Below, piece by piece: positions 3,551 to 4,161 of a stretch of DNA of 64,000 bases. The notes under the pieces were generated by a model, which saw only the letters and a program-made list of their open reading frames with translations, ran no database searches and was not told where the DNA came from. Each line of letters opens with the position of its first letter. The stretch's first letter is position 1. The DNA comes from Pseudomonadota bacterium (GTDB lineage: Bacteria; Pseudomonadota; Gammaproteobacteria; Burkholderiales; Burkholderiaceae_C): assembly GCA_020161775.1 (NCBI GenBank), contig JAIUOW010000021.1, positions 1 through 64,000 of the forward strand, written 5' to 3'. The position numbers were made by a program, and so were the translations under genes.

Positions 3551-3570
3551 GGCGCTTTTGCTCTTGTACG

Positions 3571-3798
3571 CAAGGTTGTGGGTGGGGCTGCTGGCGCTTC
3601 ACTGCGACGCCCTGCGCTGCGCTACGGGTTCCCTGCGCTGCTCGCCCTGCGGGGCGGGGTTCAGGTGCTTCGCAACGGCGCTGATACGCGCCGTTCCATA
3701 AATCACCTGACCCCCGGTCCGCCTGCGGCGGACTACCCCCGCAGGTCTGCGCTGCTCGGCGTCGCAGAGGCGCACCATCAGCCCCACCCACAACCTTG
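3571..3798 (+). repeat. Structured 228-bp repeat element, copy 1
   Basis: Part of a gene-free stretch (3551-4161). This copy is closed by perfect 20-bp terminal inverted repeats: CAAGGTTGTGGGTGGGGCTG at 3571-3590 and its reverse complement at 3779-3798. Inside are two hairpins: an 8-bp stem (AACGGCGC at 3674-3681 with GCGCCGTT at 3688-3695) and a 7-bp stem with a 3-base loop at 3717-3733. The segment TTCGCAACGG to TCCATAAAT at 3669-3703 recurs perfectly, inverted, in copy 2. No credible coding frame. It resembles a MITE-like or REP-like element; no transposase is nearby. The 20 bases before it and the 79-bp spacer show no other feature. Confidence 0.85.
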
Positions 3799-3877
3799 CA
3801 GCCCGCGTGCAGGAGCGCCATGGGCTGCGGACGCCAAAGGGCTGACTGTTGAACCGTCGCGCACCAACAATGCCTCT

Positions 3878-4105
3878 GCAAGGACGGGGGGTAGGGCCGC
3901 AGCGGCGCCTCTGCGGCGCTGAGCATCGCAGTGCAGCGGGGGGAGTCCGCCGCAGGCGGACCGGCGAGGACGATTTATGGAACGGCGCGTATCAGCGCCG
4001 TTGCGAAGCGACCGCAGCCGCCCCGCGGAGCGAGGAGCGCAGGGGAGTCCGGCCACAGGCCGGACCACGGCAGTGAAGCCGCTGCGTGCTGTCCCCCGTC
4101 CTTGC
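3878..4105 (-). repeat. Structured 228-bp repeat element, copy 2 (inverted)
   Basis: Second copy, in the opposite orientation, separated from copy 1 by 79 bp. It is also 228 bp when bounded by its own terminal inverted repeats, GCAAGGACGGGGG at 3878-3890 and the reverse complement at 4093-4105, whose sequence differs from copy 1. The shared 35-bp core (3973-4007) starts at the same offset from its end as in copy 1. The hairpin made from GTCCGCC/GGCGGAC is conserved, and an extra stem GTCCGGCC/GGCCGGAC lies at 4047-4065. The remaining 56 bases up to the exonuclease gene show nothing clear. Confidence 0.83.
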
Positions 4106-4161
4106 CGACGTGATGCAGCTTGTGGCCGGATGGCATTAGGCCAGTGCAACAGCACAAGACC

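Follow-up and report, generated by a model that had tools for sequence, protein, structure and literature searches.

The window, as we term the whole 64,000-nt stretch of DNA analyzed here, contains one copy of a dispersed, nonautonomous doublet in which two structured modules of ~230 nt are inverted around a spacer. Each module consists of end arms, a side hairpin, a two-fold helix formed by the motif GAGnAnCGCA, and a central hairpin domain, of which there are several types. We have high confidence in the family, its doublet architecture, the outward polarity of its modules, and the covariation of its paired positions; the copies compared also show that folding is conserved, that a doublet of one species can be missing from the corresponding site of a related one, and that decayed half-copies occur. 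We consider it reasonably probable that the doublets are dispersed by a putative factor acting on a folded strand, either RNA or single-stranded DNA.

The whole twin unit (half A, spacer, and half B; no strand assigned) spans positions 3564..4114, as judged by eye from the ends of four copies with the same order, and its short outer flanks are conserved (TTGTAC at the left and CCGACG at the right, also by eye). Half-element A (R1 type, 230 nt) occupies 3570..3799 and half-element B (R1 type, 228 nt) 3878..4105, with the minus strand of A and the plus strand of B being the folding strands, both directed outward from the spacer. The sequence-only reading had placed two head-to-head elements of equal length (228 bp) here; the arrangement and the ends of B stand, while A had to be extended to 230 nt. 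Perfect inverted repeats at the ends, also claimed, are present. Element A begins with GCAAGG and ends with CCTTGC, and its end arms are perfectly complementary over 21 bp (outer arm, 3570..3590; inner arm, 3779..3799), and those of B are perfect over 13 bp (inner arm, 3878..3890; outer arm, 4093..4105), with imperfect pairing further in; all four arms were delimited from the folds and an inverted-repeat comparison. The halves share a letter-identical core, as had been noticed, which is 38 nt long instead of 35 and forms the central hairpin (3667..3704, minus strand, in A; 3972..4009, plus strand, in B). By the corrected ends, the spacer (3800..3877) measures 78 nt rather than 79 and resembles the spacers of other A/B copies in the genome. 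The GAGnAnCGCA strands 1 and 2 lie at 3748..3757 and 3634..3643 in A (minus strand, both GAGCAGCGCA) and at 3921..3930 (GAGCATCGCA) and 4032..4041 (GAGGAGCGCA) in B (plus strand). Covariance model R1 matched A at 3631..3734 (minus strand; 96.4 bits, E 5.4e-17) and B at 3944..4044 (plus strand; 111.7 bits, E 2.6e-20), both sequences being themselves part of the model alignment. Both halves combine the features of the superfamily, namely, an R1 match, outward polarity, and both GAGnAnCGCA strands.

Over ungapped stretches of 76, 53, and 27 nt, halves A and B are 83, 87, and 89% complementary. Folded as RNA, A reached −160 kcal/mol (z −13.0) and B −135 kcal/mol (z −5.8), and none of 200 shuffles folded as low in either case, which bears out the earlier statement that the structure is far from chance. 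To the left, a gene of the Dopa 4,5-dioxygenase family (PF08883; 3200..3550, plus strand) ends 19 nt before A, and to the right, the stop codon of a 3'-5' exonuclease gene (PF01612; 4162..4755, minus strand) lies 56 nt past B; since both flanking genes end at the twin element, the site is convergent. A promoter-site search detected no sigma-70-like promoter in the spacer or near the window copy, and a search of that copy for T-tract terminators was likewise negative (shuffles average 0.5). A peptide-coding reading, suggested by an ATG in the shared core, was set aside, as the R2 core differs and the frame ends vary among the A copies (by eye).

The host genome (4.36 Mb in 32 contigs) contains four further complete twins (C1:28690, C12:47079, C9:106892, and C20:8362), which were detected by a nucleotide search with the whole twin as the query and are 84 to 91% identical to that of the window over 551 to 561 nt, spacer included. 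The recurring unit is the pair with its spacer, and not the single 228-bp element assumed before. Partly lost doublets were also observed, with A collapsed (contig C18), B deleted (C22), or a remnant left (C31). A second set of twins has the same frame with a different central domain and different arms (ten loci read). With one covariance model per central domain (R1, from 21 sequences; R2, from 10), 47 half-elements were detected in the host genome (15 R1 and 32 R2), 34 of which form 17 close twins (5 R1 and 12 R2); the remaining R1 halves are one pair 2.2 kb apart at C6 and 3 lone halves, and the remaining 8 R2 halves are all alone. Single copies look dispensable, given the partly lost doublets and the 8 single R2 halves. 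CTTCACT and AGAGGCG were 173 to 179 nt apart in eight elements, which include both types, a count that leaves out a second pairing of 215 in one element and a 109-nt case in locus L076.

Several individual copies deserve mention. Two A' halves of R1 type, oriented as in a twin and 2.2 kb apart at C6 (locus L069, 2109-4540), enclose, as if it were spacer cargo, a gene for a 326-amino-acid protein with a cysteine-rich end and a short early-ending frame; this 2-kb cassette gave no Rfam match, and the 326-amino-acid protein gave no Pfam match. In locus L040 (1351-1430), a module has collapsed to ~75 nt with both arms kept, an example of internal deletion as a route of decay. Spacers of loci L089, L200, L201, and L205 carry a recurring palindrome like GTTGGCGCGCCAAC or TGGCRYGCCA, which in the host genome often lies 9 nt from the inner arm end and of which the window has only a GTTGGTGCGC half (3860-3877). 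This palindrome is a possible protein site.

In all 62 close twins examined, the folding strand points outward from the spacer. This set comprises the 17 twins of the host genome, 17 double-R2 twins in 17 other genomes (leaving out locus L096, which belongs to the host genome), 27 mixed twins (R1 paired with R2) from the three species of the related genus g99, and 1 additional twin (L197); not all 62 are independent, a few being at matching sites of sister species (e.g., L179/L185). The mixed twins indicate that R1 and R2 modules can replace each other within one frame. Core matches were separated by 116 to 424 nt at 18 double-R2 loci and by 130 to 141 nt at 10 of them. Only one module was recognized at 12 of 30 loci in the multigenome R2 set, three of these having an R1 partner (two of the three, L196 and L211, are doublets already counted as L183 and L164), and at 8 of 35 loci in the g99 set, which has two further single modules near the ends of L164 and L166.

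The predicted structures are conserved well beyond this locus, whereas the sequence-only reading had named a lack of such conservation as speaking against it. For R2 (48 sequences), 97.8% of cells were paired and two-sided changes were observed in 25 of 31 pairs, and for R1 (21 sequences), 94.0% of cells were paired with two-sided changes in 13 of 23 pairs; these pair counts are biased towards the structure because the alignments were assembled from matches and alignment A3 was fitted to the model, and they are not independent because the aligned sequences are related. None of 500 shuffles reached the observed value of two-sided changes for either type, and all slid versions of both types also remained below it, those of R2 by a wide margin. 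Each module carries two direct-order copies of GAGnAnCGCA; opposed in the folded structure, they form a pseudo-two-fold helix whose pairs are interspersed with purine mismatches. One variable pair of this helix in R2 was GC in 24, AU in 12, and CG in 11 of 48 sequences, with one mismatch. In 41 R1 halves, two variable pairs were standard in 81 of 82 cells (one G-U), with one C-T; these halves were left from 51 after one duplicate had been dropped (50) and 9 lacking the first-strand motif had been set aside.

To determine which strand is kept folded, structures were inferred without G-U pairs and hence strand neutrally, and G-U and A-C cells were then counted. On the outward strand, R2 showed G-U in 22 and A-C in 5 cells (12 versus 3 columns), and R1 showed 12 versus 1 cells (binomial P values of 0.0015 for R2 cells, 0.035 for R2 columns, and 0.003 for R1, with related cells not being independent). 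The R2 result did not depend on the strand used for inference. For R1, inference from the reverse strand with G-U pairs permitted gave 29 G-U versus 18 A-C cells for the reverse strand itself, and alignment A2 alone (10 sequences) gave 5 versus 3; as these results are weaker, the strand argument rests mainly on R2. Together, the sequence comparisons suggest that one particular strand, the outward one, is kept folded, as RNA or as single-stranded DNA. Free energy was also lower on the outward strand in 31 of 31 halves and in 42 of 48 R2 cores, an observation that we dropped as support for RNA, since loop composition can cause such a difference.

R2 matches were found in 158 of 299 sampled genomes of the bacterial family at an E value of ≤0.01, in 82 of 141 genera (three of the 158, G000, G098, and G272, supplied R2 model sequences), and in 140 of 299 at ≤1e-4 (by best E value). 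R1 matched 10 of 299 genomes in 8 of 141 genera; nine of the ten supplied R1 model sequences and had originally been found by nucleotide search, and the tenth (G108) gave a weak match (E 0.006). Both searches scored the best 9 to 13 candidates per genome, so that copy numbers are lower bounds, and many R2-matching genomes have at least as many copies as were scored. In a class-wide sample, 10 of 369 genomes matched R2 at ≤1e-4, 2 within the family and 8 outside it, the latter all weak (≤57 bits); three listed genomes belong to the family, leaving at most 366 outside genomes. Of nine loci from a motif scan, five matched R2, namely, those of a proteobacterial MAG, two Rubrivivax MAG contigs, Variovorax soli (Comamonadaceae), and a Rhizobacter MAG (Sphaerotilaceae; weak, 41.6 bits). 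The loci of Paraburkholderia heleia, a Gemmatimonadetes MAG, a Binatia MAG, and Streptomyces cyaneus gave no R2 match and were taken as chance. The earlier suggestion of a mobile, regulatory, or RNA-encoding repeat family is thus upheld as far as the family goes, given the 47 half-elements of the host genome and the matches in roughly every second family genome sampled; further copies, whose absence from related genomes that reading had named as speaking against it, were present in both the host and its relatives.

A scan of the window with Rfam release 15 returned two tRNAs only, and permissive Rfam 15 scans of the window element and of loci L096, L043, L054, and L040 returned nothing at the gathering score. 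The plasmids and phages searched gave no match, two patterns searched in viral contigs gave no exact match, and the exact R1 core was absent from a genome-contig database that may omit the host genome or very near ones. Other genomes of the family (L054, 1450-1950; L049, 1400-1600) contain a third type of module, which has TGTCTGAGC...GCGAGTTT cores and is flanked by a long CTTTGCTTACTTTCTCTTGGCGAAGC-like palindrome.

Copies in genus g99 (matches of >500 nt only) resemble each other within a genome, with median identities of 88.7% in G198 (28 pairs, 84.8 to 93.0), 90.1% in G272 (23 pairs, 85.3 to 96.6), and 86.6% in G098 (3 pairs, 80.6 to 92.5); between species, the medians were 80.0 to 82.1% (95 pairs, 74.3 to 86.5). 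Two sites differ in doublet presence between G098 and G272, one each way (L189/L181). At one of them, the neighbors are two codirectional branched-chain amino acid permease genes (PF02653), which overlap by ATGA where the doublet is absent (related species; by eye). In one of the two comparisons, ~105 and 70 nt of the flanks beyond the repeat also differ, and in the other, the sequence between the genes could not be aligned. Since the ends are not clean in either case, gain and loss are indistinguishable at both sites. For the window copy, the matches listed from 40 relatives never placed the two flanking genes together on one contig.

Could the element be kept for the benefit of its host? We regard it as rather unlikely that it is primarily a 3'-end RNA element, i.e., an orientation-independent mRNA stabilizer or a termination/antitermination element kept for the gene in front. 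An open reading frame (ORF) heuristic classified 45 loci as 27 tandem, 15 convergent, and 3 divergent; it called the window tandem, whereas the Pfam-supported genes there are convergent, which makes the tally 26, 16, and 3, and other rows with distances near or above 1 kb may be wrong too. That convergent sites outnumber divergent ones (15 to 3; binomial P = 0.0075), compared with 6 and 6 among the 48 gene pairs of the window (36 tandem), favors such a role, as do the location of copies often 10 to 60 nt from both neighbor genes, the G-U bias of the outward strand, and the twin design, which gives any read-through transcript one module in the folding sense. The scarcity of divergent sites in itself fits either elimination of copies near promoters or a function downstream of genes. 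A 3'-end role sits poorly with the lack of a detectable T-tract terminator in the window copy, the existence of decayed half-copies, the variable presence at matching sites of related species, and doublets between codirectional genes, one of them between the PF02653 genes that overlap in related species. A terminator for convergent sites only was rejected, with copies in all gene contexts and the same missing T-tract. Very unlikely, in our view, are neutral long palindromes that template-switch repair keeps perfect, the folded strand being functionless. The near-perfect arms vary in concert at each locus, as arm-to-arm correction could bring about; such correction does not account for the unmatched marks CTTCACT and AGAGGCG recurring in R1 and R2, for GAGnAnCGCA, a direct repeat with mismatches whose variable pairs nevertheless covary, or for the R2 excess of G-U over A-C on one strand whichever strand is used to infer the structure.

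Inverted end arms, a gene-free interior, and multiple intergenic copies would also be expected of a MITE whose arms are the terminal inverted repeats of an insertion sequence with a DDE transposase acting in trans. Target duplications, which the sequence-only reading had proposed looking for, were not detected in the 16 g99 copies scored, a set apart from the host genome copies (all 60 shuffled pairings equaled or exceeded the best score of 21). In addition, the end arms vary between subfamilies with locus-specific paired changes, unlike a fixed transposase site, and the two outer ends of a doublet come from two different arms, so that we give this explanation very little weight. Inverted doublets, palindromes, intergenic location, and no target duplication are equally properties of REPINs (the term for REP doublets) or BIMEs mobilized by a RAYT (Y1) transposase. 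The host genome and two others (G055 and G105) each have one Y1 gene, and most g99 copies carry GTAGGAGC, which is like some REP heads, ~30 nt inside one outer end. The host Y1 gene is flanked by other repeats (TAATTGGGGTCAGA) that are unrelated to the twin elements, modules are ~10 times larger than REPs, and no Y1 match was obtained in 6 of the 8 other genomes asked (G098, G198, G272, G118, G171, and G090), the first three of which have 9 to at least 13 R1 matches each and are among the four genomes richest in R1. We therefore consider mobilization by a RAYT highly improbable and, for resident enzymes, largely refuted. A GT(A/G)G head was absent from the outer ends compared by eye. As separate observations, the Y1 gene of the host (L126 at C1, 1100-1917) encodes a 234-amino-acid RAYT-like transposase and is bounded by inverted TAATTGGGGTCAGATTCCAATTA repeats, and at the outer right ends of g99 copies L156-L189, the window-type motif CAGTGAAGC reads CAGTAGGAGC in most, resembling some REP heads.

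The reading that we favor is dispersal of the doublet through its folded strand. We infer that the outward strand folds, as RNA or single-stranded DNA, and would then be recognized by a putative factor that acts in trans and places copies of the doublet at further sites between genes. Copies would persist mainly behind genes, where a read-through transcript would hold one module in the folding sense, and, with less certainty, they may secondarily affect mRNA ends. Dispersal is weakened by the lack of a mobilizing gene among our findings, Y1 being absent from G098, G198, and G272, and by the missing target duplication and the unequal sites without clean insertion. A more specific proposal, which we consider unlikely, is that paired divergent structured RNAs constitute a new mobile class, in which a putative homodimeric protein would bind the two-fold helix of GAGnAnCGCA strands, in a folded transcript or a single strand, and carry the doublet to new places between genes; the elements would also act at mRNA ends throughout the host.

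The elements are spread between genes across many relatives of Comamonas, and R2 matches roughly every second genome sampled from this large bacterial family, yet it has no match in Rfam 15; the covariation already suffices for defining a new structured family. The symmetric mismatch helix offers a handle for finding the protein that handles the element, and the family would connect how bacterial interspersed repeats spread with their effect on transcripts.

Within the open-license literature searched and Rfam 15, the twin family is apparently undescribed and unnamed, although two previously reported elements may overlap with it in part. The Beta-proteobacterial repeat element (BRE) is, in the parts of PMC3110155 drawn on here, a GC-rich, usually intergenic repeat of Comamonadaceae and Bordetella genomes with units of 75 to 91 bp, single or in tandem with few bases between them; our modules are ~230 nt and form inverted pairs, and partial overlap is possible. 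The Burkholderiales-1 motif, a candidate RNA without an Rfam number and of doubtful RNA status in the portion of PMC2864571 used, is like the twins a candidate structured motif of the same order, a likeness that was compared by description only. MITEs are short, gene-free, intergenic, multicopy elements with inverted ends, and Polaromonas MITEs are cited in the section of the review consulted (PMC10969869); the twins differ from that account by their inconstant arms, doublet architecture, covarying interior, and lack of a detected target-site duplication, for which reason a classic transposase-made MITE is not supported. REPs, BIMEs, and RAYTs are covered in PMC2817692, whose REP table shows single short hairpins, in contrast to the ~230-nt modules with several helices described here. 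A cognate RAYT (PF01797) flanked by the twin repeats was not found in the host genome or in six of eight other genomes with the elements, and with no resident RAYT in most genomes asked and the larger modules, the twin element is not a REPIN by membership. It shares with REPINs and BIMEs two inverted palindromic modules as the dispersed intergenic unit, no target duplication, and singles that look like decay products. The best reading is thus that the twin element behaves as a REPIN of unusual size: its folding modules form an inverted doublet, which is dispersed and decays to singles.
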